From Methylomonas sp. (GTDB lineage Bacteria; Pseudomonadota; Gammaproteobacteria; Methylococcales; Methylomonadaceae), in NCBI GenBank assembly GCA_002928965.1, contig PERU01000006.1, forward strand, positions 1 through 64,000: a stretch of 64,000 nucleotides of DNA. Direction: 5' to 3'. The notes below the pieces were generated by a model. That model had not been told where the DNA came from, searched no databases, and saw only the letters and a list, made by a program, of their open reading frames with translations. Within the stretch, counting starts at the first letter, position 1. Every line of letters starts with the position of its first letter. The position numbers and the translations under genes were made by a program. Of this stretch, positions 40,754-59,555 are shown one piece after another.

Positions 40754-40889
40754 TCCGTCGGTGTCGCAGAAGCAGTTATACTGGTTTTTGCAGGCAGCTC
40801 GTCAAGCTGCATCGTATTTGCGGGTGTTGTTGATCGCAGGTTACGACCCGCCGGGTCGTCTGGTAAAAGGCTTGAAATACTATGACTGA
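40695..40889 (+). pseudogene. 3' end of an unidentified gene upstream of the FtsZ-like gene
   Basis: An open frame ends with QKQLYWFLQAARQAASYL and GRLVKGLKYYD and stops at 40887-40889, overlapping the start of the next gene in ATGACTGA fashion. No start codon is credible and the 5' part overlaps the WYL remnant. It looks like the tail of a third, mostly deleted operon member. Confidence 0.45.
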
Positions 40890-41835
40890 ACAAAATCAAG
40901 ATACTGAGGATTGCATCCGGATTGGTTTGCTGGCTTTGGATCATGCCGGCCACCAGGCAATCAGCGATTTACTCAAAAGCCCGATACTTCAGGACATCTC
41001 AATTGCACATTGGTCGGTGGCGGATACAGCAAGTCCAGAGCATGTTGACGCGGATAATCTAAACTCGTTTCTTAACGTTCATCATCGCCTGGATATCTTG
41101 TTTATTCTGGCAGACATACAAGTCGCCTTCGAGCAGGAAAGATACGCGGCAATACTGGCACAGATCTCCAGTCCCGACAAATTGGTTTTTACGATTCCGC
41201 TCGCGTCTAATAGTCAGTCCGGTCGGTTGATTTACGATCACTCGCTAGATCAATTAACAATCGATAATCACGCTGTATTAATTGAGCAAAGTACATACTC
41301 AATTGGTCAACTTAGTTTTACTGAGGAACAGTCCGCCAAAAACACTAAGAATAGGCGTCAAAATCTGGCCTTGATCATTTATGGCATTATAGGCCCTCTG
41401 ATTCATCATGGCTTGATCGGTACTGATTTAATGGAAGTCCAGGCTTTATTATCGCAAAACAGTCTGATTGATGTGTATTTAGCCGTGGACAATGACTCAG
41501 CTCGCGCACCAAATACCGCCCGCCGGATTTTGGATTATTGGCGAAATACTGAACATACGGTAACCAACAGCAGTATTGTGGATGTATTAATCACACTGAT
41601 TCATGGCAATGATTTTGCTCTCTTCGAACTGGACGAAGTCGCAGCACTTTTACTGCCAGCCTTTTCGGAAGTCGCAAATTGTAAACTCACAGAGACGCCA
41701 AACTTGGCGCTAGACGATCAAATGGCGGTTGTCATGTTTGTCAGCCGTCCAAACCTTAATCCCCAACCGATTAACGACCAAAGCCTCGGCATGGCGTCAA
41801 TGTTATTTAACGCAAAAAATCGGGAGGCAGTATGA
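40882..41835 (+). CDS. Degenerate FtsZ/tubulin-fold protein
   Basis: I infer the family from pattern only. The 317 residues follow FtsZ order: IRIGLLALDHAGHQAISDLL in place of the GxGGxGxN strand-helix; DILFILADIQVAFEQE where FtsZ has the GGGTGTG loop; then LALIIYGIIGPLIHHGLIG plus TDLMEVQALL, like FtsZ 'ISDLITRPGLINVDFADV'; then DVLITLIHGNDFALFELDEV, like 'ITAGFDLRLDEF'; and a final strand VVMFVSR. The glycine-rich GTP loop is absent, so nucleotide binding is doubtful. It is coupled by ATGA to the next gene. Confidence 0.5.
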   Translation: MTEQNQDTEDCIRIGLLALDHAGHQAISDLLKSPILQDISIAHWSVADTASPEHVDADNLNSFLNVHHRLDILFILADIQVAFEQERYAAILAQISSPDKLVFTIPLASNSQSGRLIYDHSLDQLTIDNHAVLIEQSTYSIGQLSFTEEQSAKNTKNRRQNLALIIYGIIGPLIHHGLIGTDLMEVQALLSQNSLIDVYLAVDNDSARAPNTARRILDYWRNTEHTVTNSSIVDVLITLIHGNDFALFELDEVAALLLPAFSEVANCKLTETPNLALDDQMAVVMFVSRPNLNPQPINDQSLGMASMLFNAKNREAV

Positions 41836-42692
41836 ATTGGCAAGATTTTTTACGGCAGTTACAAACTCAACCCATTGATCAGAATCAGGGTGATGCACTG
41901 CTCAACAAACTGGCAAGTTTGCATAAAACCCCTGATTTGTATTGGTATCCCGGTAGCGGCGACGATCTAACGCCTCTGTTGTTGGACGTACCCAATAATC
42001 CGACTGGCAGGCGCTTGTGTAGAATGAACGATGACTTTGACGAAAATCCTGTGTTGCTTTGGATGAACGACTACAGCGAGTTTTATCAGAACTATCCTGA
42101 TGCCGCTGTTTTAGGCAAGCAACTAGAATCATGTTACCCGGAAATTTGGCAGGACTACAACGCAACTTTTACTCTTGGTTATCATCGGGAGCGTTACCAA
42201 GTCAACGACGAGATAACGATCACTCTGTTCACCGTCATCGTCCAAAATCGGGATCAGGGCGAACATACTCGAGGTGCCGAAGGTGACGAGTATCTGGTGT
42301 GTTTCTCAAATTGTGTGTCATCAAAATTATTGAAACAAGTTTTTACCCCATTTCGTCTGCGTATTTGGTCTGTCGCTTTAATTCGGCAAGGTGGTTGTTC
42401 GGGTCAAATAGGCAATGGGCAATATTTTGATGTTCCTGGGGCAATCTACCAAGCTGCGATACAAAAATTAGTCGAAGATAGAAACAGTCGGTCTAGCGAT
42501 TTAGACCAATCTGAAGCTGTCGATCTCAGAGAGGTGGAATTCTGGATCATCGATCAGCAAGGCCAGAGTGACGAAATGCCAAGTAGTGTCGAGTTGTGGC
42601 ATTACGAAAATGTCGGATGTCCGTTTTCCTGGGGCTGGCCACCGGCAAGAGTTTTTGCTAAGCCCGGTGCGACTTATAATCGAGAGGGTTGA
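41832..42692 (+). CDS. Hypothetical protein, partner of the FtsZ-like protein
   Basis: I do not recognise this 286-residue family. Near the N-terminus it has YWYPGSGDDLTPLLLD, a motif I associate with uncharacterised proteins but cannot name. The C-terminal part is rich in aromatic residues (FSWGWPPARVFAKPG). No signal peptide or membrane segment is seen. Its start overlaps the FtsZ-like stop by 4 nt, so the two products very likely act together. Confidence 0.75.
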   Translation: MNWQDFLRQLQTQPIDQNQGDALLNKLASLHKTPDLYWYPGSGDDLTPLLLDVPNNPTGRRLCRMNDDFDENPVLLWMNDYSEFYQNYPDAAVLGKQLESCYPEIWQDYNATFTLGYHRERYQVNDEITITLFTVIVQNRDQGEHTRGAEGDEYLVCFSNCVSSKLLKQVFTPFRLRIWSVALIRQGGCSGQIGNGQYFDVPGAIYQAAIQKLVEDRNSRSSDLDQSEAVDLREVEFWIIDQQGQSDEMPSSVELWHYENVGCPFSWGWPPARVFAKPGATYNREG

Positions 42693-42949: not shown

Positions 42950-43073
42950 TCAATCCACTGTAATCTGTGATGAAAATGGATCGCTTTTTTTGTAGAAACT
43001 TGACCGTGTCAAATATAAGTCATCTAAACTTAAAAGGGAATTAAAAAACCTTATCTCATACGTCATTTCGTCA
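42950..43073 (-). pseudogene. Out-of-frame 3' part of the heptamer-repeat gene
   Basis: Past the repeat at 43074-43094 a second frame continues with DEMTYEIRFFNSLLSLDDL and ends at 42950. Removing one 7-bp unit joins it to the upstream frame and gives a protein of about 170 residues. Confidence 0.6.
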
Positions 43074-43469
43074 ATTGTAAATTGTAAATTGTAAATTTTC
43101 AAGTTTTTCGTTGAAAATGTCACCGCCATCATTATGCTCTGAGTAAATGAAGTAGTCGGAATCAGTGTATGAATACAATATACTTCCATATTCTTCGTAT
43201 ACTTCATGAATGTTCTTAAAATTATATTGCACCATTTCTGTAAAGTTTTTCCATTCATCGTCATCAAACTCCCAAAAAATATTGAGTTCTTCGTCAAGCT
43301 CTTCGAGGTTATTAGAAAGCTCTTCTAAAGAGTCTTTAGTCTTTAAAAATTGTGCGTCATTGTTTATTATATTTAGTATTTTCCCTATACAATCGTTAAT
43401 TATAGATTGACTTTCAACTATCCTGATCATGTGATTAATATGGTCTTTTTCAATATCTATGATCTGCAT
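43071..43469 (-). CDS. Acidic hypothetical protein ending in a 7-bp repeat tract
   Basis: This 132-residue acidic, AT-rich, helical protein (ELSNNLEELDEELNIFWEFD) has no recognised family. Its last codons run through three copies of ATTGTAA (plus strand) and hit a stop within the repeat. It lies 64 nt behind the caspase-like gene on the same strand and is probably its operon partner. With two or five repeat copies, the frame would continue to 42950. Confidence 0.65.
   Translation of the reverse strand: MQIIDIEKDHINHMIRIVESQSIINDCIGKILNIINNDAQFLKTKDSLEELSNNLEELDEELNIFWEFDDDEWKNFTEMVQYNFKNIHEVYEEYGSILYSYTDSDYFIYSEHNDGGDIFNEKLENLQFTIYN
43074..43094. repeat. Three tandem 7-bp units (ATTGTAA) inside a coding region
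   Basis: Three perfect units lie exactly where the gene changes frame. Seven is not a multiple of three, so gain or loss of a unit shifts the frame, the classic layout for slipped-strand phase variation. Confidence 0.8.
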
Positions 43470-43533
43470 ATCATTACCCCCTATCTTCTGTTTTTTTTGA
43501 ATTTCATTTGTCTAGCAAAAATAACGAATCTAA

Positions 43534-44235
43534 TTATATGTTTTGAAATCTGTCATATTCATAAAAAACATTATCAGTTACGGTTTTGGCTCTTTTACCT
43601 TTTCCACTTGGTTGAATAACAAACTGTAATGAGTTACGGAGTTTTACGGGTTTGTTATGATAGTCTTCACCTATACTAAATTTATCAGAAAAGCTGCTGA
43701 TTGAACGCCCCAGACTTCTTATCATCTCATCCTCATTATTATAATCATCATGTTCCAAATTTGACATGCCAGACATAATGGCGCAGTCTATGAATGTGCC
43801 TTCAAGCCAAGCTGAACTTGTAGCATATCCGGCACACCATTTTAAATTTGTGTTCTGAATATAAACCTCCATTGTTGGTAGGTTTCCGCCTACAAAGCAA
43901 GAACCTAACATTAATCCTGTAATATTATGCTTTTTAGATTTTTCACCAACCTCAGACATAAGTTCTTGTATAGTTACGCCGCCAATCTTTTGTTTATATC
44001 CATGGGCTGCAATATAAACAATTGTATTTTGGAAGGATGTTTTGCATAAGCAATAAAGGGCTTTTATAAAACTGTTTTTGTCATAAAAGTTAGCATGGTA
44101 TACCTCTGTATCACCCGCAAACTTTGCAATCCCTTCAACAAAAGGTATTACGCTGCTTCTATTTGAATCACCAACATCCAACTCCCAAGGAGATTCAAGG
44201 ATCAATATGGCTCTATTTGAGTTCTGTATTTTCAT
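43534..44235 (-). CDS. Caspase-like (clan CD) protease-fold protein
   Basis: The 233-residue protein shows the caspase/CHAT-type pair: a hydrophobic strand ending in His (TIVYIAAHG, H78) and a second ending in Cys (GLMLGSCFVGGN, C113). The N-terminal strand RAILILESPWELD fits the first strand of the fold. Such proteases often act as suicidal effectors in bacterial defence; the target here is unknown. AT-rich, in an accessory region, followed by the heptamer-repeat gene. Confidence 0.65.
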   Translation of the reverse strand: MKIQNSNRAILILESPWELDVGDSNRSSVIPFVEGIAKFAGDTEVYHANFYDKNSFIKALYCLCKTSFQNTIVYIAAHGYKQKIGGVTIQELMSEVGEKSKKHNITGLMLGSCFVGGNLPTMEVYIQNTNLKWCAGYATSSAWLEGTFIDCAIMSGMSNLEHDDYNNEDEMIRSLGRSISSFSDKFSIGEDYHNKPVKLRNSLQFVIQPSGKGKRAKTVTDNVFYEYDRFQNI

Positions 44236-44311: not shown

Positions 44312-44448
44312 TTATTCGTGCAGCACAAACGTAGGCTACGGTATATTCTAAAGTACAGACAAGCGCTCGGTATTGAGTGTGTCTCGGCAATCTATTTTCA
44401 ACGCGCCAATCTGTAAGCCATTGGGCAAACTAAATGGCCCGATTTCGG

Positions 44449-44851
44449 TTAAATCGTATAGAGAGCCGTCAATTTGCTTGGTTTTTTCTTTTTTGCCATT
44501 GCCTCGTCACAAAGTTTATCAAACTCAACTTTCATAAATCTTGCCAGTTTAGCTTCGCGGCGCCTCGGCCCCTCGTAATCTTCGCTCATCTTTTCAGCGC
44601 AGACGCACCAGACATCGAACTACTCGTCCAGATCCGGGTGTTCCATGATGTGGACATAGCGGATCTTCTTGTTGCTGCACATCTGGCAGGTAGGAGCCCA
44701 ACCAAACACGCTCGCCTTCGCAAGATACATTTTTGCTTAGCGGTTCATTGGTCAGCCTCAAAATTTCGCGAATGGCTGTAAATAACGGCGAATAACAATA
44801 TTTTTGAATCGCTTTTTCTAGGGAATTAGCTTTTTTGGATTCATAAGACAT
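44449..44851 (-). pseudogene. Decayed Cys-rich (zinc-ribbon-like) protein gene
   Basis: An N-terminal frame (from ATG 44851: SLEKAIQKYCYSPLFTAIRE) gives way, after a frameshift, to a frame with PTCQMCSNKKIRYVHIMEHP, an in-frame TAG, then FDVWCVCAEKMSEDYEG and RRREAKLAR before a TAA at 44449. Two CxxC/CxC clusters suggest a metal-binding protein of the kind common in genomic islands. Broken by at least two changes. Confidence 0.5.
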
Positions 44852-44860
44852 GTAATATTC

Positions 44861-47800
44861 CTACTTATTTGGAACAGCAGTCTTCGTGCTGCCACCATGC
44901 TGAGTCACTCTGGGGCGAGTCTTAACTTTTACCGCTCCCCGTGTGAAAGCGTCATCCGATGCCTTGCTTGACCAAATGTATGCTTCGCCGGTGCCAAGGT
45001 GACTCATCTTGTCAGAGGTCAATTCACCTAAAGCGGCATTCGCTTTCTGGATATGTTTCAACCAAGCGGGCGAGTTGAATTTATGCATGATGATCTGCGA
45101 TGACAGCTCGATCAGTGAGACAGGGACCGACGGTGGGTCCTGAGATGCCACCATGATGCTGGTTCCTTTGTGTCGCATTTCACGAACGACCTCAACGAGG
45201 CCGGAAACCAAGTCATCGTTCTCGATGTACTTGTGAGCTTCATCGAATACCACCAACTTGTTGAAGGCGCTTCCCTGATAGGTTGCTTCTGAGAAAATCT
45301 GCAGCATCACCACGAACAAGCCGAGGGCCTCATCCTTTTCGATGTATTCATCTCGTAGATCCACGATGATCAAACGACCTGGACGAATCAGGTCCTGGAG
45401 CCGCTGGTTATCATCAATGTATTCGCTGGCGAAGAGGAGGCGCGTCTGGGCCAGCTCTTTAAGGTGATCGGACAGACCAGAGTTATCGATGCCTGCTCGC
45501 AGAGCATCCAAGGTCAGGTTATCCCGCAGCCCCCTCATGATGAGATTGATTTGCCGCATATACATGCTCTGACTGCCAATCGCTCCCATCAGGAATTTCC
45601 AGTGCGCCGCCTTGAGTTCGGAGGCAGAGAAAGCAATCGGCTTAACTTCGATATCTGGGTACTCGGCTCTGCGGTCATCCACCTTGTTTGCCGGGGTAAG
45701 GATCAGCACATCGTTCAAGGCTTCAGGATTTGCCTTATAGCGCTCCCGGAGGATACGGATCTCTTCCTCCACTGAGTTGGCATTGATCATCGAGGTAAAC
45801 TCCGGCGCATAATCCTGCGTCGGGCTGTAATGGAAAATGACCGTAGCGAGTGGGCTTGGCAGGACATTGATGTGTTCGAGGGGCATGGAGGCCATCTCGA
45901 TTACCGTCCCAAGGGTGTAGCTCTTGCCGCCGCCTTGAACCCCAAATAGACTGATCGTGTGGGTGTGGTTGAGGTCAAGCGCGACCTTTCTTCCGGAGAC
46001 CTCTCCGAGCAGTCCGTACTGGGGCGAGTCACCATTAATGCCCAGCATGATGTCATAACTGACCTCCGCGTGAACCGCAGGCTCGGGTGCAGGATGCTCT
46101 TGCATGTCATGCACGGATTCAACAGGTGTTTCCGGCTCAACAACAACTACAGCGGGCGTTTCGTCCTCATCTTGCGCTTCAGGAGTATTCTCTAAGGAAT
46201 GAGGTGTTTGGGCTGCTGTATCCATTTGAGCAGTTACTGGTGTTTCTTCTGCGGCGGGAGGTAGCGGCTGGGGAAATGGTGCATCCGGCTCTTCATCCCA
46301 CAGCTCATCTACAGTCCATGACGTTGTCCGGACTCTTTTGGGAGCGATGAAGGCGGCTGTCTCGAGCTTCGGCACATTTGGTATAAACTGTTCGCTGAGA
46401 AGCGCGGTTGGTTCTTCATCAATCTCTGCAGAAACGGGCTTGCGGCAGTTCTCCAGTAAGGCATGAATGAGATCTTTACCGATGCGGTGGAATTCAATGC
46501 CCACCTCGTTGTCTGGGGCCTCGGTTCCGGTCTTGTCGAAGTCGAAGATTAGGGCGCAGCGTCTGAACTGCAGCGAGTAGCCTTGCTCGATAGATTCTAG
46601 TAAACCTCGCGCTTCCTGCGCGGCAGTCGCATCAAAGATCCCGTAACGCAGTGAGCGTTCTAGATAGAATCGAAGTATCTGAGCCAACTCCCGGCTCTTG
46701 AGCAACCTATCCGGCCGGTCAGGTTTTTTCACAGCTGGGTCAAAGTGGCGCTGGAGGATACGCTCACTCTGATTGATTTGGGAGGAAATCCGTTCCTTCA
46801 ATTGATTGAAGGCCGCAAAGTCGCCCACCTGCGAATAACACTTCACCTCGACCAGATTGCAAGTGATAGTCCTGGTGCTCAAATCCAAGTCGAACAAACC
46901 CAAGTCGGTGCGTTGCAGACTGATGGCATCGTTAACATCGTCTAATTCACCGCTTGTGCGATAGAGATCCGTGTGTGCGTCCAACGGCACAATGACCTGA
47001 TTACTTAAAGCACCTTGATATTCGAGATAGAGCCGCGCCAAAGCCAGGCCAAGTGCTTCCGCCTGTTGCGTGCGAGCAGAAATCAGCTTCAGGGCAAGCT
47101 GGCCGGAAAGTGACCGAAGGTTTGCCAGGATCTGAACAGATTGCTCGCCGTCGGCGGACAAACCATGCTCAAGTAGCACCGGCTTCAACATTGCCTCCAG
47201 CTCATCGTTTGAGCGCGAGGAGATGATTAGGTTATGTGTCGCCTGGGAGCTTGCTCCCGGCACATAGTCAATCAGATAGTCTGGTCTATTCTTCCGGCCG
47301 CCATGGTCGAAAAACTCAATCCCCATATTTCGGTCGATGGTGAACACCCAGTCGCTAATCTGGTGAATTTCATAGATCAGTGCTCGTTCAGCTACATTGA
47401 GGCCAAGGGTTACAACGGGTACAGCTTTGAAACTGGCACCAGAAGCAGCAACCGCTGAGGTGGCGAAACAGAGGTGTTTGCTCAGGGACGACAGCAAATC
47501 GAAGCATACTGCATGGCTATCTGTACTGAAAGGACGACCGACAATTGGCCGTTTATTCCAGAAGGTACCCGAATCGTCATCAACAAATTCTGTGTCGAAG
47601 TCCTGTATCAACCCATGTAGTGGAGTTACTCCCATTGGCTTCTCTGCTATGGAAAGCTCCTCAGCGGGAAACACATCAAGAAGTACGCTGATATGTGCTG
47701 GGAACGCCTTGGAATTTGTATGGAATGCATCCAGTGCGTGCTTGGCCAAATTCAGCTTGGAGAATAGATGACTGCCAGTAGAGGTCGCAAACGCATCGGC

Positions 47801-50308
47801 AGCCTCATTTATCGTAGCTCCTGGACGGACCATAGATTCGAGTGCTTCGCCCAAAACAGGCGAGTCGGGGGCGGAGCTAAAGAGCCGAATGTCATAGCGC
47901 AAATCGGCATGCTCACGCTTCTGTTGGAGCGATAACAGCGCATCCGCAATTACTGATCCGGCTCCTGGGTTGAAAATATTCAGGGATAACTCACGAACAT
48001 ACGGATGCTGGGAGAGATAGCGCTCGATCTTGTCGGCAATGACCTTTCCGGAAACATCGATTCCTGCCGCAGAGGGTTCGGTTAATCCGAGAGCAGAACA
48101 GATTTCCGCCAATAGGCCACGGGAGTTTTCCTCGGTTGTCGGGGCGTAAAGCGCCCAGAACGCATTTAAATTATCAACCGGCGTGAAGATTCGGCCATCT
48201 TCGACGGGGATTCCAACTGGATATGCAGAGGGAGCAAGACCATCTAATAATGCGGAACGGACGTGAGGGATATAATCCTTTCCGCCAGACCTGATCTTCT
48301 CAATCCAATCCTTGCCTAGGCTGACCCAACTGCTCAGCCACAAAGCCCGAAGAGGATGGGTTGGGGAAACCAGAACAGCTTCCCGGTGCCTTCCACGGAA
48401 ATCGGTCAATATGACGTGAATGGAATCTACGGCCAGCACATTTTTGAGCGCTTGCAGGTGTTGTTGGCGTTCAGCACCAGACGTCGCCTCAGCCTGCCGG
48501 ATAAGATTCCTTACCAAATCGAGATAGCCTTCTGCATACGCAAGGCATTCCTTCTCAGAGTCTCGGAATGAAAGCCCCTGCATGATTAGTTCAGCCGTAT
48601 CTTTGCGAACCGCTGCGAAAAACTCTTCCCGGGTTGCCAGGAAGGAGGCCATCGCCGCAGAAGTTGGCAGTGTTAGCCCGACCTGGGATGGTGGCTCCGC
48701 AGCATCCAGATTGATCTGCATACGCCAACCAGAGGGATGCTTGGGTTCCGACAAGATGCGCTGCTCGATGGTTTTGAGCATGCGCGAAAGCGGAATCTGA
48801 ACAGCCCCTTCACGACCGAATTTCGCCAGCAAGGTCTCCTGACGGGAGGCCTTTTTCGAACGACCACCCTCGGCCCAGGTGACACCAGCAATGGTTATAT
48901 CATCGGGATCACGCTCATCGCCCAACGCCGTCAGCTGCAGCCGAAAACGCGCATGCTCCAGGCTTTGTTCAATGGGTATGGCGCGTTGTGGTGGCTCTTC
49001 TTCGATATTGCCGCCGGGCAGGACGTAGAATGGTTCACTCTCGTAGGACCGTTTAGCGCCCTCAAAGGAAGAATCCACTTCCAGCGGAATCGGGTCACCA
49101 TCGGACGTCCAAGGCATGACGCGAATGAAATGCCACCCTTCCTCAAATTCGATCTTATTCAGGTTGACCAGGTTTGTCGTGCACTGTAGGCGGTTGGGCG
49201 TCCAAGCTTTGACGTTTTTAGATTTACCTACCGGACCGTCATTCTGCGAAACGATTTGAACCGTAAAATGGTCAAGTCCGCTGACCTTGCCCGGGTGAGG
49301 TTTGACCTCGAACACCACGTTCATTTTGCGGCGATCTTTCGGGACTAGAACCTGTTGTCCAATCAGGCCAGAAAGTTGATCGTCGGCCTCATCTTCCTGG
49401 ATAACTGGCAAGTCGGTTTCCAGTACTGTCAACAAGACCTTGTCCAGTGAAAGCTCCTCCTGGAACGTCCATTTGTCGAAAGAAATGCTCCACCAGCTAT
49501 TGTCGGTTGCGATGGAATGTGTCCAGGATTCGGGTTCCTGGACATCGTGTTTTTCAAAGTATGTGAATAGGCGCGACTCCAAAGCATTATCGCTAAGTCC
49601 CAGATCGGCGACACGACCACGAACCGACTTGTGCGAGGTCATCAAACTGCGGACACTGCCCAGGTTACGGTGAATCTTGCCATTAACCATGCCGGGATCG
49701 GCGAATAGTTTAAAGTCTGGAATCAGCGTCAATTCATAAAGACTGGCTCCAAGGGTCTCTCCATCAATCCCGTTTTCAAGAGCAGTGAGGAGGTACCTCA
49801 CTCGGGAAACATCATCGGAAAACAACCAATCTGCCTCTGTGAGGATGGCCATAAGATCGCGAACATAGCCGACCAGTGTTGTCGGGAGCCGATCAAGGAG
49901 CAAGTCGATAAGGTCTTCGTAAATTCCGGTGAAAGTCAGTTCTTCGAAGGTCGCCACACCAAAAGAGTCTTCCGCGCTGGTACGGAGTGAAGTCGGTATG
50001 AAAACCAACAAAGGCTGGCGCAACTCCCCGTTCTCGTCCGGGTTACGTAATTCCACCAGTTTGGTGGAAGTGACTCGGAAGGGCTTACCCTCTTGGTCAT
50101 GGCTGCCGAGGATAAAAATGTTTCCGTTTGGTCTGTTTCGACGCAATTCCTTACAGACCGACTCCATAACATCGTCATCGAGATCCGTAACTCGCATGCA
50201 GTGACCTGGACCACGGTCGCCCAGAATCGCGTCGATACGTGGGCTTAGGAGATCAGCGACCGCCGCGTTCAATTTATCCTGGGGAAGCTTGGTAAACGCG
50301 TTACTCAT
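44861..50308 (-). CDS. DptH/HerA-like ATPase of the MADS-type operon (probable mad8)
   Basis: This 1815-residue protein is the last gene of the defence operon. The C-terminal part (about residue 1440 on) is a HerA/FtsK-type ATPase: Walker A GVQGGGKSYT near 1458 and Walker B KLVVFDEAHKY near 1690, with an R-finger-like RPGRLIIVDLRDE between. The long N-terminal region has no motif I recognise; a Pro/Glu-rich linker (about 1350-1420) separates the two. Overall plan resembles DptH of phosphorothioation-linked restriction. It overlaps the preceding gene by 4 nt. Confidence 0.8.
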   Translation of the reverse strand: MSNAFTKLPQDKLNAAVADLLSPRIDAILGDRGPGHCMRVTDLDDDVMESVCKELRRNRPNGNIFILGSHDQEGKPFRVTSTKLVELRNPDENGELRQPLLVFIPTSLRTSAEDSFGVATFEELTFTGIYEDLIDLLLDRLPTTLVGYVRDLMAILTEADWLFSDDVSRVRYLLTALENGIDGETLGASLYELTLIPDFKLFADPGMVNGKIHRNLGSVRSLMTSHKSVRGRVADLGLSDNALESRLFTYFEKHDVQEPESWTHSIATDNSWWSISFDKWTFQEELSLDKVLLTVLETDLPVIQEDEADDQLSGLIGQQVLVPKDRRKMNVVFEVKPHPGKVSGLDHFTVQIVSQNDGPVGKSKNVKAWTPNRLQCTTNLVNLNKIEFEEGWHFIRVMPWTSDGDPIPLEVDSSFEGAKRSYESEPFYVLPGGNIEEEPPQRAIPIEQSLEHARFRLQLTALGDERDPDDITIAGVTWAEGGRSKKASRQETLLAKFGREGAVQIPLSRMLKTIEQRILSEPKHPSGWRMQINLDAAEPPSQVGLTLPTSAAMASFLATREEFFAAVRKDTAELIMQGLSFRDSEKECLAYAEGYLDLVRNLIRQAEATSGAERQQHLQALKNVLAVDSIHVILTDFRGRHREAVLVSPTHPLRALWLSSWVSLGKDWIEKIRSGGKDYIPHVRSALLDGLAPSAYPVGIPVEDGRIFTPVDNLNAFWALYAPTTEENSRGLLAEICSALGLTEPSAAGIDVSGKVIADKIERYLSQHPYVRELSLNIFNPGAGSVIADALLSLQQKREHADLRYDIRLFSSAPDSPVLGEALESMVRPGATINEAADAFATSTGSHLFSKLNLAKHALDAFHTNSKAFPAHISVLLDVFPAEELSIAEKPMGVTPLHGLIQDFDTEFVDDDSGTFWNKRPIVGRPFSTDSHAVCFDLLSSLSKHLCFATSAVAASGASFKAVPVVTLGLNVAERALIYEIHQISDWVFTIDRNMGIEFFDHGGRKNRPDYLIDYVPGASSQATHNLIISSRSNDELEAMLKPVLLEHGLSADGEQSVQILANLRSLSGQLALKLISARTQQAEALGLALARLYLEYQGALSNQVIVPLDAHTDLYRTSGELDDVNDAISLQRTDLGLFDLDLSTRTITCNLVEVKCYSQVGDFAAFNQLKERISSQINQSERILQRHFDPAVKKPDRPDRLLKSRELAQILRFYLERSLRYGIFDATAAQEARGLLESIEQGYSLQFRRCALIFDFDKTGTEAPDNEVGIEFHRIGKDLIHALLENCRKPVSAEIDEEPTALLSEQFIPNVPKLETAAFIAPKRVRTTSWTVDELWDEEPDAPFPQPLPPAAEETPVTAQMDTAAQTPHSLENTPEAQDEDETPAVVVVEPETPVESVHDMQEHPAPEPAVHAEVSYDIMLGINGDSPQYGLLGEVSGRKVALDLNHTHTISLFGVQGGGKSYTLGTVIEMASMPLEHINVLPSPLATVIFHYSPTQDYAPEFTSMINANSVEEEIRILRERYKANPEALNDVLILTPANKVDDRRAEYPDIEVKPIAFSASELKAAHWKFLMGAIGSQSMYMRQINLIMRGLRDNLTLDALRAGIDNSGLSDHLKELAQTRLLFASEYIDDNQRLQDLIRPGRLIIVDLRDEYIEKDEALGLFVVMLQIFSEATYQGSAFNKLVVFDEAHKYIENDDLVSGLVEVVREMRHKGTSIMVASQDPPSVPVSLIELSSQIIMHKFNSPAWLKHIQKANAALGELTSDKMSHLGTGEAYIWSSKASDDAFTRGAVKVKTRPRVTQHGGSTKTAVPNK

Positions 50309-51984
50309 GCGTGCCTCCCATTCTTATCTGTTCCGACATTTCTCTGAATGGCATAGCGGGGCGATACCTTCTGGGTCACGTAGGCATCCGACAGGTCCTC
50401 GTAAAACCCGATTTCGCGCAGGCGACGTTTGAAGGCTTCGTGGTTGAGACGCAGAGCGCGTCTGTCGACGATGCTGCTGTTGGTCTGGGCTCCTTCCGGA
50501 AGCCGATCAATATGAATGCCATAGCGGTTTCTCAAAAAGGCCAATAATTCCTCAATACGAACCTCACGCGTCACGAAATGCCCGCCATCCTGGGTGAGCA
50601 CAGCTACCTGAAGGAGCACTTCAAGCAGCTTGCTTCCAAGCACAAACCGCCGAGGACTTCCCTTAGTTCGGGATTGCGCCAGCAGGCCGTTCTCTTTATT
50701 CTTCAGAAGGAGAGAGTCCAAGCATTCAGTGATGTATTGACGGTGATATTTGCCGCGATATGCCATCAATATTTCAATGAATTTATCGAAGGCATTCAGA
50801 TTCATCGGTGTAACTTCCCGAATTTCGGGATCGAGTTCATCTTTATTGGTTCCCGCCTCATCAATTAAGGTTGAAAGACGAGCTGAAAAATAAGCTTCTC
50901 GATTTAAATCGTATTCAGGCTTAAGCAGAGATAACAAGTCACCAACTGTAAAATAGCCTCCTGAAGGTAACGGTAGCTTCCCTTGGAGGCGCATATTCTC
51001 CGCCATCTCATCGAGCTTCTTGACAACGAAATTGGCCTGCACGAAGACTGGGATCTGTCGATAATGTCGGTCAGTCGACTTGCGGGCTAACTCGGCCATG
51101 TGCGGGTTATTGGCGTCACCCATGTCCACGACCAGCGAAGCCTTGTATGGACAACCTTCCAGCGCATTGTCGAAACTGGGATTGATTGGGCATTCCTTAG
51201 TGCTACAGAGATCGTTTCCAGAACACTGTTTCACTAGCTTAGGGAGCATCTGCAGCAACTTGAGATGATAAAGTGCTAGATGAAATGCCATTAGAGTTTT
51301 AAGGTAATCTACCAGCACCGAACGGGGGATATAGGGCTCATAGGCCAGAAGCCGCAATATGTCATCGGCCATGATATCGGCTTGACCGATACACAGCGGC
51401 TGGAACCGTGAGGGCTCCTTGGAGTCCTTCATGTCCTGGGTAACCTGATGATCCAGACGTAGGATGGCCTGTGTTTCCACATCCACGGACGCATTGGGAT
51501 CGTACCTGTCCGTCACCAGGTCAATTCCTGGGAAGAAAAAGCGCTTCAAAGCATCTCGCGCAGCCTGTCCTTTGCCTTTTCTGGCATAGAAAAGCATCCA
51601 GTAAATTTGCTCGGCCGCACCATAATCACGGGTGTGTTTCGCGTTACGAAACTTATAAGTGTTGCCGTGGAGAGGACGTGGAGCAGCCAGCGCTTGATTG
51701 CTCTTCCCCCGATTTACCATATCCATAAGGTCTGTTTCGATCCAGGCTCGAGCAATATCTGGATGTTTGTCGAAACCGGAAAACCATTCAGGATGTTCCA
51801 GAAAATCCGCTAAAAATTCATCAATCGAAAGATCGCCTCCTCTGGGAGGGCGTCGACTTCCATATCCGTCATATTTGAGACGTGGGAAAAGCATTGTTAA
51901 CACTCTATCCATCTCGATATGCTTGAAATCGAGGTATGAAACTTTTGGGATTCTGAATTCCTTATCGCGTCCTTTAACTGCCAT
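50305..51984 (-). CDS. Unknown defence-operon protein (probable mad7)
   Basis: This 559-residue protein has no catalytic motif I can name. A cysteine cluster near residues 250-275 (CSGNDLCSTKECP then EGCPYK) could bind zinc or an Fe-S cluster. The C-terminal LLAFLRNRYGIHIDRLPEG looks like a winged-helix segment. It overlaps the kinase gene by 11 nt and the ATPase gene by 4 nt, so production is coupled to both. Confidence 0.75.
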   Translation of the reverse strand: MAVKGRDKEFRIPKVSYLDFKHIEMDRVLTMLFPRLKYDGYGSRRPPRGGDLSIDEFLADFLEHPEWFSGFDKHPDIARAWIETDLMDMVNRGKSNQALAAPRPLHGNTYKFRNAKHTRDYGAAEQIYWMLFYARKGKGQAARDALKRFFFPGIDLVTDRYDPNASVDVETQAILRLDHQVTQDMKDSKEPSRFQPLCIGQADIMADDILRLLAYEPYIPRSVLVDYLKTLMAFHLALYHLKLLQMLPKLVKQCSGNDLCSTKECPINPSFDNALEGCPYKASLVVDMGDANNPHMAELARKSTDRHYRQIPVFVQANFVVKKLDEMAENMRLQGKLPLPSGGYFTVGDLLSLLKPEYDLNREAYFSARLSTLIDEAGTNKDELDPEIREVTPMNLNAFDKFIEILMAYRGKYHRQYITECLDSLLLKNKENGLLAQSRTKGSPRRFVLGSKLLEVLLQVAVLTQDGGHFVTREVRIEELLAFLRNRYGIHIDRLPEGAQTNSSIVDRRALRLNHEAFKRRLREIGFYEDLSDAYVTQKVSPRYAIQRNVGTDKNGRHA

Positions 51985-54900
51985 AGTGTTGAGCTCCCTT
52001 TTCTGACACGCTCAGAGACAGCAAACCGCCGTCCTCCAGACAAATTTCATAAAATTGGTATCCTGTTTTTGTTAGCAGCACCTCTTTATAAGGCACTGAA
52101 GCCAAGAGATTTTTAAACACAGATAAACTTAGCAAAAACCCTTCCTGCTCCTCGATGCTGGGGCGGTAGCCGTTGTTGAGCCTCATCAGCATTTCGTAGA
52201 TGTCGAGATTGATGCGTAGGCTGGCCTTGTGTCCATTGCCGGTGTCGTAGAGCAACACCAAGGCCTGCGACAGACACTCGAGAAAAGGATGCGCCGCTGT
52301 CTCTTGCTCAGTGCGGAGTGTGAAATGTTCGCCGTCAAAGAGTCGGTAGCTGCGGATGGAGCCCCTATCTACCTGACGAACGCGCAGTGCCAACTGGTTA
52401 CCTAGCCGCGCCGGATCGCTCAGACCTTCGCCGCGGTTAATGGCCCGGAGAATGGCGGCAACCTCATCAATAGTTTTTGCACCTGGCTGCTCAATTGCTC
52501 CTAGGAAGGGATCTATGCTGCCATACGGCAGCATTTCCTTCCAACCGATATCGCGTCGTTCAAAGAAATGGCGGCGGCGCATATGCGAAAGATAATTGCG
52601 GTGCTTGGCAATCAATCGAGCACGGTTCTTTGACGAATAATCGCGAGGCAGATTGCGGAACAGCGTCTCCACCAGTTCATTGTCATAGCCAGCTCGTTCC
52701 GCGAACGAGAAACGGCTCATTGCCTTGGTCTTAGGATTGAGGAAGCCAAGCTCGCGATCCAGATCGGGATTACTGACTTCGGCAACGTCAATCTCGCGCA
52801 GCAGGGCAATCAGCCGGTCATTAGAACCATCCGTTCCGCCGAGCCACGAGTTGAAATAGAAACCGTCTAGGATGCGATTCAAAGTTTCTTCACCGCCATT
52901 CAGATAAAGCTGGTGAATGCCGTCGCAATCCTGGGTGCCCACCAACATAAAGGCCAACGCCGAACGCAGGTCGCGCATGGTGATGTGCAGTCGGCCGCGC
53001 AGATGGGTAATCGTGTAGAGCATCTTCAGGCGCTCGATCACCTTCGGTCCGGCTACCGGATCCTGGAAGGTTCGGGCGTTATGGTAGGCAAAGCACTTGT
53101 CCTTGAGATCGCAATTCTCACAGGCTTGCCAGTATTCTTGCTGCGTCATGCGGACAACCAGCCGCTCAAGAATCGAAGGCTGACCTTCCTCAGGTTCGGC
53201 GACCACTGAACGCAGATTGAGGTTGATGCCCGCGATACCGCCTTCTGGAGCGGCGCCGGCCAAACCCTGCTGAATCTGCTTGGCGAGTAGCGGGAACTCC
53301 TCTTCGTGCTCGAGGAAGAAATCGACCAGCCTTCCTTCATTGATCGCAATCAAGCGGGTTTGATTCTCTGGCCAGCCGGAGGCGTTCTTGCCCGCAAAGG
53401 GAGCAAAGAATTTCTGCAGCACAGCATCGTTTCGCTCGTCGCCCTCATCCTGGCTGCCATCATAGTTACTCTGGTAAGTATGTCCATTTAGCTGGAAAAC
53501 AGCTCCATTCGCGCCGCGCTGCATCTGTGCACCCTTGCTCTCGGTAAATGCCTCGAACTGCTGAATGAAGGCCGTCTTACCATCACCAGCATTACCGCTG
53601 ATGATGACTAGGCGATATTCGCCATTGAGCAGCGCGGGCTTGAGCTTCTCGTCCAGATAGGTCGACACGTAAGTAGCCCTGCCAACATCGTCGAGGCCTC
53701 GGGTGCCTGCGTTAGATACCTGGCTTTGGCTGTAGAGAGTCAGCAGATGTGTGACAAAAGGGTTTGTGTTGGGCTTCAGCGACTCGAAGCCTAGCTTGGG
53801 CACCATCTTGAAACTTGAATCTATCTCGCCGCTGGTCAACGCCGTACGTAGTCTTTTAACCTCGGCAAGGGCAATCAAGAGCTCATCAGCCGACGCAAAG
53901 CGATCATTTCGCTCCGCCGCGATCATTTTCGATAGGACATTGATCAACGAAGAACTGAAGTCGGCGCAGCCTTTGAATTGCTTAGGGTCCTTGGGCTGCG
54001 TTTTGACCGGCGGACTGGGTTCGTCAAAAGGATACTTGCCAGTCAAACATTCGTAGAAACAAATACCCAGGGCATAGAGATCGCGATCTATCCGATCGGA
54101 AGCATCCGGCTCGGAGGAGTAATCGTAATCTGGCGGCAGGTAGCGACGCGTACCGCCACTGCCATGAACCTCGTCATTCTCGGAAACCGCGACGTTGAAA
54201 TCGATGATGCGAACACCCTTATCGGTCCAAAGAAGGTTCGAGGGCTTAACATCCTGATGATAAACGCCGTGTTTGTGCAGGTGGGCTAGCCCATCGGCTG
54301 CCTCGCGTACTATGCGCACGGCGTCTTCCAGAGACAGCGCTTCGTTATTGATGAGATCGGAAACGTCCAACCCTTCAACATATTCAAACACGATGTACGG
54401 CGTCTGCTGGGCGTCGGCCATACGATCCGCCCAGATTACTTTCACGACATGCTGATGCTCAGGCAGATTAGTTAGCGTCTTGTATTCGCGTCGCAGCCGT
54501 TCGTAAACGCTACGACGATCCTTGGTTACTAGTTTGATGACGCGAACTACATCGCCCAGAGAATCAAAAACCTTGTAAGCAACGCCAAAACCACCACTGC
54601 CTAACTTTTTCTGGATACGAAAACGATCCGCGAGGATGAAATCCTGCGGCAGATTCATCAAGTTTTCCGAGAGCTGCGGTCCGACCTTGATCGAGCTATT
54701 TACAACGATAGCCGAATCGTTCTTGGCCTCGGGCAGGATGAGTTCTTCCAGAGTTTTACGGGCGATTGCCGCGCTGGCGTAACGATCTTCAGGGTCAAAT
54801 TCGCAGAACTTCTGTAACCACTCATCGACTCCCTTTGGTAAATCCGGCTTATGTTCTGAAGGCCTAATAGGGAACTTGCCATCGGCCTCAATCATCTGGT

Positions 54901-56146
54901 CAATGTTTTCATAGGGTAACTCGCCAGTGAGCAGTTCATAAAAAACCATTCCGGCAGAGAAAATATCAGAGGCAATTGATGCTTCTTTTGGCTCGGATTT
55001 TTGTTCGGAAACTACTAGCTCTGGCGCCCTATAGGTAGGATCCAGCTCATCGGAAATCTGATGAGCAATGGTTTCCGAAGTAGAACGATCTTTTCCGACA
55101 CGAGCGAAATCGAAGTCAGTTACCCGGGCAACACCGCCTTTGGTAACCAAAATTGCATCGGGAGTCAGATTCCGGTGAATAACTTGATGCTGATGGGCAT
55201 GGTCCAACGCAGCAAGAACACCCTTAATCACCTGATACTTTTGATCGGTGGTCAGCGCAAAAGACGGCTTTTTTAGATGCTGGCGTAACACTTGCCCGGA
55301 AACATCATCCGTTACCAAGGTAACTTCATTGCCATCTTCCGATTGAATTAAATCCCTTACGGCTAGCACGTTTGAGTGAGCGCTCATATGCTGAACTGCC
55401 ACAAAAGCATTGCTGATTTTCTTCAGCTCTGCTTTGCGAGACGGTACATCCAAGTAAGGATCGGCGCGATAGACCCGAAGACGAACTTGACCGGCTTTAG
55501 CGCCGAGCAGATTATGTTTGGCACGGTATTCTGTATAACGATCGTTACCACCTAGTTTTTCTTCGACTTGCCAACTGCCAAACACTGGTGGCGCAGAAAT
55601 GGGTTTAGCCTTACCTTGAATCGCCTTGTCGATGAAAGAATGATAATTGCGAATATCCGAGAGGCGATGATTGGGAATCTTAGTTTTATCGGCAAAAAAC
55701 TTAAGACAGCGCTTATAGTCAGTGACATCTGGACTATCGATACTTGCCGGGTCATAGAGTTGAGCATCATCTGAAGTCAGTAGTACGGCTGACTGTACAT
55801 GCACTTTTCTAAGTTCAGTAATACCTTTATTACTATCTGACAACAACGTGCTCATCACCCTGGCATGGTTACGAAGCTTGGCAAGGGGCGAGTGAAACGG
55901 CTGCCGTCCCTCGGGATACCATTTGGAACCATACACATCGATGTTGCCCCGCGTTCCTTTGACATCCACTAAGTACACCGCGTGAGGCGCGAGGATAGCG
56001 ATGTCGATTTCGAACACTTCCTCGCCCTGACGCATCTCAAAGTTGTGGAAGATCAGCCAGCCATCGGGCAGATGATCCCGAAGGAAACCGATGGCCTGGC
56101 GTTCAGAATCGTTCGCGGGTTGCCCGATGGGTATGACCTTCGCCAT
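51974..56146 (-). CDS. NERD/double-kinase/ATPase protein, PglW-like (probable mad6)
   Basis: The 1390-residue protein has, in order: a NERD nuclease-related domain (about 10-110; EVFEIDIAILAPHAVYLVDVK); a kinase-like domain (about 190-460) with degenerate VIHRNLTPDAIL and DFDFAR; a second kinase domain (about 505-775) with GSGGFGVAYKV, HQDVKPSNLL and DFNVA; and a P-loop ATPase (from about 860; GNAGDGKTAF), then a Cys cluster CENCDLKDKC. NERD plus kinase recalls PglW of Pgl/BREX systems. The second kinase has DFN in place of DFG. It probably senses infection and signals by phosphorylation (inference). Confidence 0.85.
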   Translation of the reverse strand: MAKVIPIGQPANDSERQAIGFLRDHLPDGWLIFHNFEMRQGEEVFEIDIAILAPHAVYLVDVKGTRGNIDVYGSKWYPEGRQPFHSPLAKLRNHARVMSTLLSDSNKGITELRKVHVQSAVLLTSDDAQLYDPASIDSPDVTDYKRCLKFFADKTKIPNHRLSDIRNYHSFIDKAIQGKAKPISAPPVFGSWQVEEKLGGNDRYTEYRAKHNLLGAKAGQVRLRVYRADPYLDVPSRKAELKKISNAFVAVQHMSAHSNVLAVRDLIQSEDGNEVTLVTDDVSGQVLRQHLKKPSFALTTDQKYQVIKGVLAALDHAHQHQVIHRNLTPDAILVTKGGVARVTDFDFARVGKDRSTSETIAHQISDELDPTYRAPELVVSEQKSEPKEASIASDIFSAGMVFYELLTGELPYENIDQMIEADGKFPIRPSEHKPDLPKGVDEWLQKFCEFDPEDRYASAAIARKTLEELILPEAKNDSAIVVNSSIKVGPQLSENLMNLPQDFILADRFRIQKKLGSGGFGVAYKVFDSLGDVVRVIKLVTKDRRSVYERLRREYKTLTNLPEHQHVVKVIWADRMADAQQTPYIVFEYVEGLDVSDLINNEALSLEDAVRIVREAADGLAHLHKHGVYHQDVKPSNLLWTDKGVRIIDFNVAVSENDEVHGSGGTRRYLPPDYDYSSEPDASDRIDRDLYALGICFYECLTGKYPFDEPSPPVKTQPKDPKQFKGCADFSSSLINVLSKMIAAERNDRFASADELLIALAEVKRLRTALTSGEIDSSFKMVPKLGFESLKPNTNPFVTHLLTLYSQSQVSNAGTRGLDDVGRATYVSTYLDEKLKPALLNGEYRLVIISGNAGDGKTAFIQQFEAFTESKGAQMQRGANGAVFQLNGHTYQSNYDGSQDEGDERNDAVLQKFFAPFAGKNASGWPENQTRLIAINEGRLVDFFLEHEEEFPLLAKQIQQGLAGAAPEGGIAGINLNLRSVVAEPEEGQPSILERLVVRMTQQEYWQACENCDLKDKCFAYHNARTFQDPVAGPKVIERLKMLYTITHLRGRLHITMRDLRSALAFMLVGTQDCDGIHQLYLNGGEETLNRILDGFYFNSWLGGTDGSNDRLIALLREIDVAEVSNPDLDRELGFLNPKTKAMSRFSFAERAGYDNELVETLFRNLPRDYSSKNRARLIAKHRNYLSHMRRRHFFERRDIGWKEMLPYGSIDPFLGAIEQPGAKTIDEVAAILRAINRGEGLSDPARLGNQLALRVRQVDRGSIRSYRLFDGEHFTLRTEQETAAHPFLECLSQALVLLYDTGNGHKASLRINLDIYEMLMRLNNGYRPSIEEQEGFLLSLSVFKNLLASVPYKEVLLTKTGYQFYEICLEDGGLLSLSVSEKGAQHYGS

Positions 56147-56904
56147 TAGCGACCTACTCCCTCAATGGCACGCTCGACGAGTGTGCGAGCTTCATCTTCA
56201 AGCTCTATAGCTAGATCACGTGACTTATATGCGTCAATAACAAGATGATTTATTTCGTCTTGAAAATCGCGAGTCGGATATGGAATCGGCAATTCATGAA
56301 GGAGGCTGAGAAGAGGATATTGCAGCTTCGATCCAAATGAAATTGATCGAATCATACGGAATGCAGTTTCCGATCGCATGAATGCGAATAAGCAACCCTG
56401 AAACATCTCCTCTTGGTCAGCAATAACGCGATAGAAAAGTTCCGAGTAAGCTCTCTCGGCAGCTTTACCCAAAATGAACTCACTGCGACAATACAATTCA
56501 AATTCGCCAAAAGTCCCGGCTCCAGCAATCAAAATTGTCCCTGGTTCAACGAGGACTTCATCGTCTACGCATGATTTTGCAATCCATCGCCCCTCAGGGC
56601 GTAACCAAAAAATCTCTTTCTGCCCAATCATATGGTAAGAATATTCAGGCTCAGCATCTATTCTGTTGTAACGCCCGCCTCGCTTAATGGAACCAGGTAG
56701 ACAAAGCTTCTCTAATGGTTTCCATTGAGTCGCCTTAATTCTGTTCGCAAGACGGTGAAATCTTTGGTTATAGTTGAGCGCGCGGAGTGAATGAACGCCC
56801 ACCTTTGAACTAAACCCAGTATCAGAACCCCATGAGTGCCACTCTGCTTGAGTGATATCTGACAACCCCACGGAACTGAAAAAAAGTCTAGTAGCTTCAT
56901 TCAA
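56146..56904 (-). CDS. Specificity subunit, C-terminal TRD part (probable mad5, split)
   Basis: This 252-residue frame begins at a TTG and has a type I S-subunit-like target-recognition domain (KPLEKLCLPGSIKRGGRYN, then LLSLLHELPIPYPTRDFQDEI) followed by a coiled coil (DLAIELEDEARTLVERAI). It is in the same frame as the upstream 200-residue part; only a TAG at 56938-56940 separates them. Together they make a normal two-TRD subunit of about 464 residues. Confidence 0.8.
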   Translation of the reverse strand: MNEATRLFFSSVGLSDITQAEWHSWGSDTGFSSKVGVHSLRALNYNQRFHRLANRIKATQWKPLEKLCLPGSIKRGGRYNRIDAEPEYSYHMIGQKEIFWLRPEGRWIAKSCVDDEVLVEPGTILIAGAGTFGEFELYCRSEFILGKAAERAYSELFYRVIADQEEMFQGCLFAFMRSETAFRMIRSISFGSKLQYPLLSLLHELPIPYPTRDFQDEINHLVIDAYKSRDLAIELEDEARTLVERAIEGVGR

Positions 56905-56937
56905 TTGATTCTGTCCCTGCGAAAGTAGCTGAGCCGA

Positions 56938-57540
56938 CTATTCAACAAGCCTATTAGCTCGTTCCTCAATTTGGCCCAATCTCGGTACAGGCAGATTGGC
57001 TACGTGATGTGGTTCGATGCTTTGAATAATTGAGCCGTAAGTTCCCGACACGACAATTGGGATGCCAAACCGTGACGACAAAAAGGCATAGAGATACCCT
57101 GGTTTTACCTTCTCCGTGTTTGGGACAACTCGCATAACATGCTCAGAGCAAGCCATGCCATCCATCGCCTCGCGCCCGAAGGCCATCCGACCTGTTGTCC
57201 CAGAGCGAGTGATAAGGGTCCATCCTTTGCGAATGATGAAATTAGGATTCTTTTCTACTTGTCGTTTTGATAAAAGCGGCTGGGAGGACAGATCAAATGC
57301 GAGGATATCTGTGCTTCCCATGAAGGGGACACCATGTTCTGCATCAATCACATATTGCCGCCCCTCCCGGCCTGCATGGAAAATTCCTTCGGTGACGCTA
57401 TCTAAAGGTTCAGTCTGGAATTTTTTCAACAGTTCAATTGCTTCGATTGCACCAGACATATAAGGTCCACAATCAAGGCGACGACCATTGTGTTCAAGCC
57501 ATGTGCTTGGAATCGCTCTGCATTGAAATTTTCTGCTCAT
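56938..57540 (-). CDS. Specificity subunit, N-terminal TRD part (probable mad5, split)
   Basis: The 200-residue product contains the first target-recognition domain (YVIDAEHGVPFMGSTDIL, IIRKGWTLITRSGTTGR, LYAFLSSRFGIPIV) and stops at a TAG just inside the central coiled-coil linker (QIEERANRLVE). It overlaps the methyltransferase stop by 4 nt. It would direct methylation to a sequence motif; with one TRD per half it might still assemble as a half-subunit. Confidence 0.85.
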   Translation of the reverse strand: MSRKFQCRAIPSTWLEHNGRRLDCGPYMSGAIEAIELLKKFQTEPLDSVTEGIFHAGREGRQYVIDAEHGVPFMGSTDILAFDLSSQPLLSKRQVEKNPNFIIRKGWTLITRSGTTGRMAFGREAMDGMACSEHVMRVVPNTEKVKPGYLYAFLSSRFGIPIVVSGTYGSIIQSIEPHHVANLPVPRLGQIEERANRLVE

Positions 57541-59555
57541 AACGTCACCTCACTGGTTGTAAGAAATTCCTTGTATTTCTCTGCTACTACCGGCAATTCA
57601 TCATCGATACGTGGGTTAAGACGGAATGAGTGGCGAATCTCCACTTCTCTACCATTCCGGATCCGTTCGATAACTTCTTCCTTAAAGATCAAAACATCAC
57701 CATCAGGCGCGCGTTGAAATAGTCTTCCCCGTGTGTCTACCCCAGCCCGTTCAACAACAGCCATGAAAACTTTGTATTCCGGGTGTTCAGTGTTAATTAG
57801 CTCTTCCTGACTGCGACGACGCAGGACGAGAAGACTTGGCCTGGCAGCCTTCAGACCATATTCCTTCACGGTGACCTTGAACGGCTCCTCCGGCAGGTCA
57901 ACCGAAGCCAAGACCTCGCAGTGGCGTAATATCCACCAGCGAATGTACTCATCGCCTGGGTTTCCTAAAACACCATCAGGGAGAAGAATTCCAACACGGC
58001 CTATTCCGGGTTTGACCCAAGCCAGCGCACGCTCAATAAATAAAACTTCAGGTGGAACACCTCCCGTGTTGATGGCACCTGAGTTAACGTAACCGTCTCC
58101 ACCTTCTTCTTTGTTCCAGACCTTTCCAAGGTCATACTGGGAGAGAATTGATTCGTCGACAATAACATCCTTTGTTGAGAACCAGGGGTTGAGCAGAACC
58201 ACGTCCATGCTGCCCAGCGGCAAGGCTGGGCGAGCTGCTTCGATGCCATCCAAATCGCCCTCCGGAAAGGTTCGGGCATCTATGCGGAACACACGACCGG
58301 GATTGCCGGTGGTGAACAGCAGGTTCATGCGGCTGGCGACGGCCAGAAACGGATCGATGTCGCAGCCCAGAGCGTTGCTGGCCGCCCAAACGGCGGTTTC
58401 GTTTTGCGCTTGGCGGTTCTGTTCATTGGTGGCTTCGTCGGGCGTAGTACCCAGGGCAGCCAGTTTCTTCTTGAAAATGTGCACGGCGGTCATAGCCAGA
58501 AAGGTGCCGGTACCGCTGGAACAATCTATTATGCGTTCGCCTGGTTGTGGGTCAAGCATCTCCACCGCCATCTCGGCAACATTCAGCGGCGTAGGGTAGC
58601 GCCCCTCACGGCCGTCCATTACGCTGCGGGCGACAGCACGGAAGGCTCCAGTGCGGAATCGGGGTTGGGTTTCGCACAGAGAGTAGCGCGCCAGTTCCAT
58701 GACCACGCGGGCAATCTCGTGAGGCTCTAACGTCAGATCCCAGCCACGTGTCAGCAGGTTCGGTTGCCAAACCTTGGCAGCGGCAATGGATTCATTGATG
58801 CGCTGGGCAATAGCCTGTTGGCCTGCTTCGGTGAAAGGCTCGTCGCCCCTGATCCAGAATTTGCTCTCGCCGGTGGACAGGGTCTCATCAAAGATTTTGG
58901 CCAGCATCAGAACAGCCAATTGCTTGAAGGAATCCTTGTGGTCTAGACCGAGATTGCGATTCAGATACTGGCGGCAACGCAGTAGGGCATCTTCAAGACC
59001 TTCTGCTTCGGCACTAACCTGGATGACCCCACCGGAACGGTCGATATCGGTGGTATTTTCACCTCGCACAGGCCAAACGCCCAGAGGCTTAGCGCGGACC
59101 TCAAATCGTGTGCGCACGACTTGGAACAGAAATTCTTCCTGACCATTTGTCCACATACCCAGTGTCGCGCCAGGCATCAATTCCAGTAGCTCTTTAAGCT
59201 CGCGAATATCTATATCGGCCTCGGCAATAGAACGAAGTTCGACGCGTTTTTTTTGATCTTTACAAACAATGATCCGCTGCAGATTGTCGTTGTTGTGCTC
59301 AGCGCCGGGTCTAAAAATCGCGATGTCGATACGTTTTCGCCGCTGGCCTGTGATCTGGGGATTGTAATTCACCTCCAGATCATCCCGATCAAACCCGTAG
59401 CTATCAATAAGCTGGCGTAATACTTTCTGTACCAACAGCTTTTTGGCAGAAACGGTTTCCTTTGTTCCGGTTAGGATATCAATGAAAAAATTATCTGGGC
59501 CGCTCTCTTCGTCAGCATCGAGTTGGACTTCCAAAATCTCGTCTTGCTCGCTCAT
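57537..59555 (-). CDS. N6-adenine methyltransferase-like protein with altered motif IV (probable mad4)
   Basis: The 672-residue protein has an N-terminal HsdR_N-like domain (about 25-170, with WTNGQEEFLFQ) and a HsdM-like methylase domain. SAM motif I is DCSSGTGTFLA. Motif IV reads LNPWF where active enzymes have NPPF/NPPY. This may lower or abolish catalysis, so it could be a structural partner of the other methyltransferase. It overlaps its neighbours by 4 nt on each side. Confidence 0.85.
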   Translation of the reverse strand: MSEQDEILEVQLDADEESGPDNFFIDILTGTKETVSAKKLLVQKVLRQLIDSYGFDRDDLEVNYNPQITGQRRKRIDIAIFRPGAEHNNDNLQRIIVCKDQKKRVELRSIAEADIDIRELKELLELMPGATLGMWTNGQEEFLFQVVRTRFEVRAKPLGVWPVRGENTTDIDRSGGVIQVSAEAEGLEDALLRCRQYLNRNLGLDHKDSFKQLAVLMLAKIFDETLSTGESKFWIRGDEPFTEAGQQAIAQRINESIAAAKVWQPNLLTRGWDLTLEPHEIARVVMELARYSLCETQPRFRTGAFRAVARSVMDGREGRYPTPLNVAEMAVEMLDPQPGERIIDCSSGTGTFLAMTAVHIFKKKLAALGTTPDEATNEQNRQAQNETAVWAASNALGCDIDPFLAVASRMNLLFTTGNPGRVFRIDARTFPEGDLDGIEAARPALPLGSMDVVLLNPWFSTKDVIVDESILSQYDLGKVWNKEEGGDGYVNSGAINTGGVPPEVLFIERALAWVKPGIGRVGILLPDGVLGNPGDEYIRWWILRHCEVLASVDLPEEPFKVTVKEYGLKAARPSLLVLRRRSQEELINTEHPEYKVFMAVVERAGVDTRGRLFQRAPDGDVLIFKEEVIERIRNGREVEIRHSFRLNPRIDDELPVVAEKYKEFLTTSEVTL

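Follow-up and report, generated by a model that had tools for sequence, protein, structure and literature searches.

The window analyzed here is a stretch of 64,000 nucleotides (nt) of Methylomonas sp. DNA at the start of contig 6 (PERU01000006.1), one of the 85 contigs that make up a genome of 4.03 Mb. It encodes a protein of 233 amino acids (aa) that we consider, with moderate confidence, to be a cysteine protease of caspase fold that stands alone, belongs to an undescribed family, has moved horizontally, and often lies near defense genes; the acidic open reading frame (ORF) behind its gene would be specific to this locus, and the heptamer array at the end of that ORF is not a demonstrated switch. 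The observations that bear directly on this reading are the fold, an invariant His/Cys pair, a foreign base composition, and defense neighbors at several loci. The elements of the locus are as follows.

43534 to 44235, minus strand: caspase-fold protein of 233 aa with the putative dyad H78/C113 (ORF call, alignment, AlphaFold model, and structure matches)
43071 to 43469, minus strand: acidic ORF of 132 aa, the proposed partner, starting 64 nt past the caspase stop codon (ORF call)
43073 to 43097, no strand assigned: perfect tandem repeat with the unit AATTGTA, 25 base pairs (bp) or 3.6 copies long, lying across the 3' terminus of the acidic ORF
42950 to 43072, minus strand: alternative frame of 40 codons plus stop, joined by loss of one unit or gain of two (frame arithmetic), without coding signal

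The initial annotation of this DNA, made from the sequence alone, had described a caspase-type protein with H78 and C113; the residues are as it claimed, and fold and alignment agree with it. The AlphaFold model of the protein (predicted local distance difference test score, pLDDT, 89.7) has as its structure matches the caspases (caspase-3, -7, and -8) and SAVED-CHAT, and its best match in a viral structure library is an uncharacterized phage protein (E 8.7e-07). H78, G79, and C113 are invariant in all 21 members of family alignment A2, which does not include L022, where the gene runs off the contig end, or L026, where it is shortened; alignment A3, used for the structure model, holds 17 of these 21 rows, the four plasmid loci having been left out. 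Loci L069 to L074 were fetched later, and a motif script found both dyad motifs in four of five further members (L069, L070, L071, and L074); in L072, which the filter of the script overlooked, AHG and SSC are visible by eye. We take the His-Gly and Cys motifs to be the catalytic dyad of clan CD caspase-fold cysteine peptidases, and two marks of membership in that clan, the caspase-like fold and the conserved His-Gly and Cys, were found here. The assignment of the window protein to the caspase type is thus supported by its predicted fold and its invariant His and Cys, together with the defense neighbors described below.

Profile and sequence searches returned little for this family. At E <= 1 neither Pfam nor NCBIfam matches the 233-aa protein, a search of PDB sequences gave unrelated matches only (E 0.28 or worse), and none of the 21 family members reaches E <= 0.1 with a curated caspase model; their best curated-profile match is Peptidase_C13, in one member, at E 0.023 and under its cut-off. 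The putative caspase-fold family is without a name in the Pfam, NCBIfam, and PADLOC scans. It is likewise not described in the portions covered of the open-access literature, including PMC12839542, PMC7159879, PMC13373217, and PMC4365076. What is already known is that caspase-like peptidases occur in bacterial conflict systems and that a repeat tract can make a defense gene phase-variable.

Base composition was compared with a genome sample made up of the window and 19 further 20-kb stretches (444 kb, approximately 11% of the genome), which also served for the repeat statistics. The G+C fraction (GC) is 0.353 in the caspase gene and 0.296 in the acidic ORF, as against 0.489 in the sampled genome, and this low GC fits a transfer from elsewhere. 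The base composition of the two genes is foreign and consistent with horizontal acquisition. The caspase-like gene was found in no genome of the genus searched besides the source genome, had zero matches among 40 close relatives, and was absent from 397 other genomes of the phylum that were searched; of the family genomes with a match to the acidic protein at E <= 1, four besides the source (G288, G410, G442, and G463) also matched the caspase-like gene. Sequence searches with the protein found nothing in phages or viral contigs, and a Dickeya caspase-like gene gave zero matches to E. coli genomes. In one locus of genome G410 (L073) the gene is split into two overlapping frames. On a Marinobacter contig (L026, 5001-5659) it is reduced to approximately 30 recognizable residues, preceded by an AAA ATPase and followed by an intact acidic ORF of 164 aa.

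The window gene lies beside known defense genes. A gene of the MADS type lies upstream of it on the same strand across a gap of 625 nt, and belongs to the following operon.

44861 to 50308, minus strand: MAD8-like protein of a MADS-type defense operon (PADLOC mad8, 1.5e-42; NCBIfam antiphage_MADS8, 8.2e-71 and 238 bits, the cut-off being 175)
50305 to 62211, minus strand: remainder of the MADS-type operon, with mad7, mad6, a split mad5, two methyltransferases, and one 375-aa gene (PADLOC, 7 proteins)

The two methyltransferases match the type II and mad2 models of PADLOC. Beside other family members we found BrxA, BrxB, and BrxC (L020), LeoBC (L011), PDC-S28 (L018), a CARF-HEPN protein (L070), a type I methyltransferase (L010), and a TIR-domain protein (L009), so that defense genes adjoin the family in the window and in six other loci, all of them picked loci viewed without a background control. 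A 225-aa neighbor in L017 and a 206-aa neighbor in L025 had zero matches in the neighbor scans. In the divergent branch of the family, the gene of L070, that of L023, and the remnant in L026 each follow a two-domain AAA ATPase, and a WYL regulator is located close to the gene in L070, L022, and L024. The set of AAA ATPase, caspase-like gene, and WYL regulator recurs in L023, L070, L071, L022, and L026, as checked with Pfam in part and by eye for L071 and for the regulator of L023.

From the fold, the conserved dyad, and this context we infer a protease activity, a trigger, and a role in defense. The caspase-like protein would most likely be a dormant cysteine protease that becomes active in infected cells. 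Infection would set it off directly or by way of a neighboring sensor or system, and the protease would then cut cell proteins, leading to abortive infection, or a component of the neighboring system. The name of suicidal protease given by the initial annotation is plausible in this sense, proteolysis being a prediction. The acidic ORF would be a local addition confined to this locus, either cargo or modulator, and the heptamer array a local product of slippage that alters mainly the C-terminal tail of the acidic protein.

Several points weigh against this reading. The neighbors were scanned at selected loci with no background control, and by eye L012 to L016 and L019 contain no obvious defense gene within approximately 1.2 kb upstream and 1.5 kb downstream; L014 sits among flagellin-like genes, and L013 and L016 have a sugar-transport gene on one side and an nfo-like gene on the other. 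No family member has a known activity. The divergent Vibrio loci L007, L024, and L025 share, as judged by eye, a next gene of approximately 206–220 aa followed by one of approximately 121–130 aa, and therefore certain divergent members may act together with partner proteins rather than alone.

A partner had also been proposed in the window, where the acidic protein was regarded as target, inhibitor, or sensor of the caspase. Its position 64 nt after the caspase gene and its acidity were confirmed (isoelectric point, pI, 4.10; 30 D/E against 8 K/R), and a ribosome-binding-like GGGGG ends 7 nt ahead of its ATG. We rejected the possibility of a spurious ORF because GC by codon position is structured in the body of the ORF (0.42/0.16/0.34). 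The single-sequence structure model of the protein (pLDDT 41) is too low in confidence to interpret, and the best Pfam match, DUF6630, stands at E 0.027, under its cut-off. The shared strand, the close spacing, the GGGGG, the acidity, and the codon structure would suit a constitutive inhibitor (antitoxin-like) or a substrate of the caspase encoded in one operon, with the array altering the tail only. The acidic ORF behind the shortened caspase gene of L026 (164 aa, pI 4.05) could be counted in the same direction, being 22% identical to the acidic protein over 74 aa with E = 0.011 in a single comparison; in a small database of downstream ORFs, however, the same match has E = 1.9, and both proteins are acidic. 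That ORF had no match in plasmids.

The search for homologous gene pairs argued against such a partnership. When 180 ORFs from the 1.5 kb that follow the caspase gene in each of 28 loci were searched with phmmer, the acidic protein itself was the only match (E <= 5), so that the conserved adjacency expected of a toxin-antitoxin pair was seen in 0 of the 27 other loci, a count that includes L026 with its shortened gene and L073 with its broken gene and leaves L068 uncounted as the same locus as L009. Two relatives with 64% identity, L009 and L017, do without the acidic ORF. A tblastn search of the whole loci L004 to L026 gave nothing convincing, with a best E of 0.066 in a dynamin-like gene, and no homologue was found in plasmids or phages by tblastn or in viral contigs. 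Among 121 genomes of the family, 45 including the source had matches at E <= 1, all weak, the best outside the source genome having E 0.00186 with 32% identity over 64 aa; where a genome had both match types, the partner-like match was on another contig (G410 and G442) or more than 1 Mb from the caspase gene (G288 and G463). The claim that the acidic protein is the partner of the caspase was thus not borne out, and we regard an inhibitor or substrate as unlikely. A stronger candidate, to which we give somewhat less than an even chance, is that the acidic ORF is unrelated cargo inserted by chance behind the caspase gene. The want of good homologues and the fact that the first downstream ORFs vary from one caspase locus to another are consistent with cargo; the 64-nt spacing and common strand fit an operon instead. 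Cargo would be compatible with a stand-alone caspase-fold protease.

The initial annotation further proposed that slippage in the heptamer toggles the partner between a short and a long form and thereby controls a suicidal protease. The acidic frame does end where it had been placed: three ATTGTAA units occupy 43074-43094 within a 25-bp perfect period-7 run, and the TGA follows the array directly. The array is the sole perfect period-7 run of at least 18 bp (2.5 or more copies) in the 444-kb sample. Shuffling of the sample in 200-base blocks, 20 times, gave a mean of 0.1 such runs and none of at least 21 bp, and on this basis a chance product was rejected. Origin as a dispersed genomic repeat was also rejected, the array being found at one site of the source genome only; in the whole genome ATTGTAAATTGTAA matches at the array alone, twice and overlapping. 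The three ATTGTAA units are missing from 36 further genomes of the genus that were searched, and the 22 caspase loci scanned (234 kb) are free of period-7 arrays with at least 2.5 copies. With a pure repeat in a coding region and a unit not divisible by three, the array has the form of a phase-variable simple sequence repeat, and phase-variable defense genes do exist, the G tract of pglX being one in the portions available of PMC4365076. The frame arithmetic was also right, in that loss of one unit or gain of two adds about 40 codons. The ORF lengths computed by script for changes of -2, -1, 0, +1, +2, and +3 units are 130, 170, 132, 137, 177, and 139 aa, which places the long form (170 or 177 aa) in two of the six states and a length of 130–139 aa in the other four.

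The sequence that slippage would open gives no sign of being coding. A local Markov model whose training DNA contains the opening itself puts the probability of at least 40 open codons at 0.061 for a single specified frame and at 0.118 when either of two frames will do, a length thus expected by chance in 12%. GC by codon position is flat in the extension (0.30/0.33/0.35). Its codon score, whether trained on caspase and partner (0.05) or on the caspase only (-0.03), does not exceed that of intergenic DNA; the score is noisy and weak as evidence (with caspase-only training, codons 1–40 of the acidic ORF get -0.014, and intergenic frames go up to 0.169), and GC by codon position is the clearer measure. 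Searched against the caspase loci, the tail gave nothing better than an unconvincing match at E 0.34. The frame beyond the array is probably not a real coding frame, so that a different repeat number here continues into 40 codons without coding signal and not into a true coding frame. Phase variability survives to the extent that slippage is possible in principle, and falters on the nature of the frame that it would open. A lack of conservation in the 3' frame, named in advance as telling against the switch, was seen in weak form, as no homologue was found in which the frame could be conserved. With neither body nor tail having a homologue, only 3.6 copies, and most unit states giving the short form, we regard toggling of the partner as highly improbable. 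Frame arithmetic and array rarity are the two things that back the control circuit; the available tests point against it, and it is not supported. If true, the switch as first proposed would be new. More speculative still, and to our minds very improbable, is a composite in which defense islands (MADS, BREX, Leo, CARF) would exchange the stand-alone caspase-fold family as an accessory killing effector, run in some lineages by the AAA ATPase and WYL regulator, and in which the slipping heptamer would determine the C-terminus of an acidic modulator gained in this strain.

Other features of the region were recorded. The mad5-like specificity gene (56146-57540, minus strand) consists of two ORFs in one frame with a TAG between them, the halves matching positions 6-154 and 203-389 of the mad5 profile. 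Between mad8 and the caspase gene, 44434-44851 holds short ORFs on both strands and looks degenerate by eye. Of two overlapping genes (40882-42692, plus strand) that converge on the acidic ORF, the first matches FtsZ weakly (TIGR00065, E 7.6e-4, far under cut-off) and the second matches nothing.

Comparison with known systems places the family as follows. In Pgl defense, the available portions of PMC4365076 describe the pglX G tract as phase-variable and report switching frequencies; in both cases a gene of the defense locus contains a repeat tract, but the window locus has one known allele and its alternative frame looks non-coding. Relative to the animal caspases (caspase-3, -7, and -8), the window protein has 8–15% identity and is without a Pfam caspase match. 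SAVED-CHAT (PDB 8tl0) joins a caspase-like CHAT protease to a SAVED domain, whereas the window protein is a single domain of 233 aa, without SAVED or another sensor and with 8% identity. An unnamed caspase-fold family of approximately 230 aa near defense genes could reveal the role of bacterial caspases that have no fused sensor. According to the portions available of PMC7159879, caspase-like peptidases occur in prokaryotic conflict operons, occasionally as stand-alone genes, and are placed in vWA-MoxR, GTPase, or membrane systems. The window family is likewise caspase-like and stand-alone; the vWA-MoxR, GTPase, and membrane partners of those systems were not seen here, and in some of its divergent members it is a two-domain AAA ATPase that precedes the gene.
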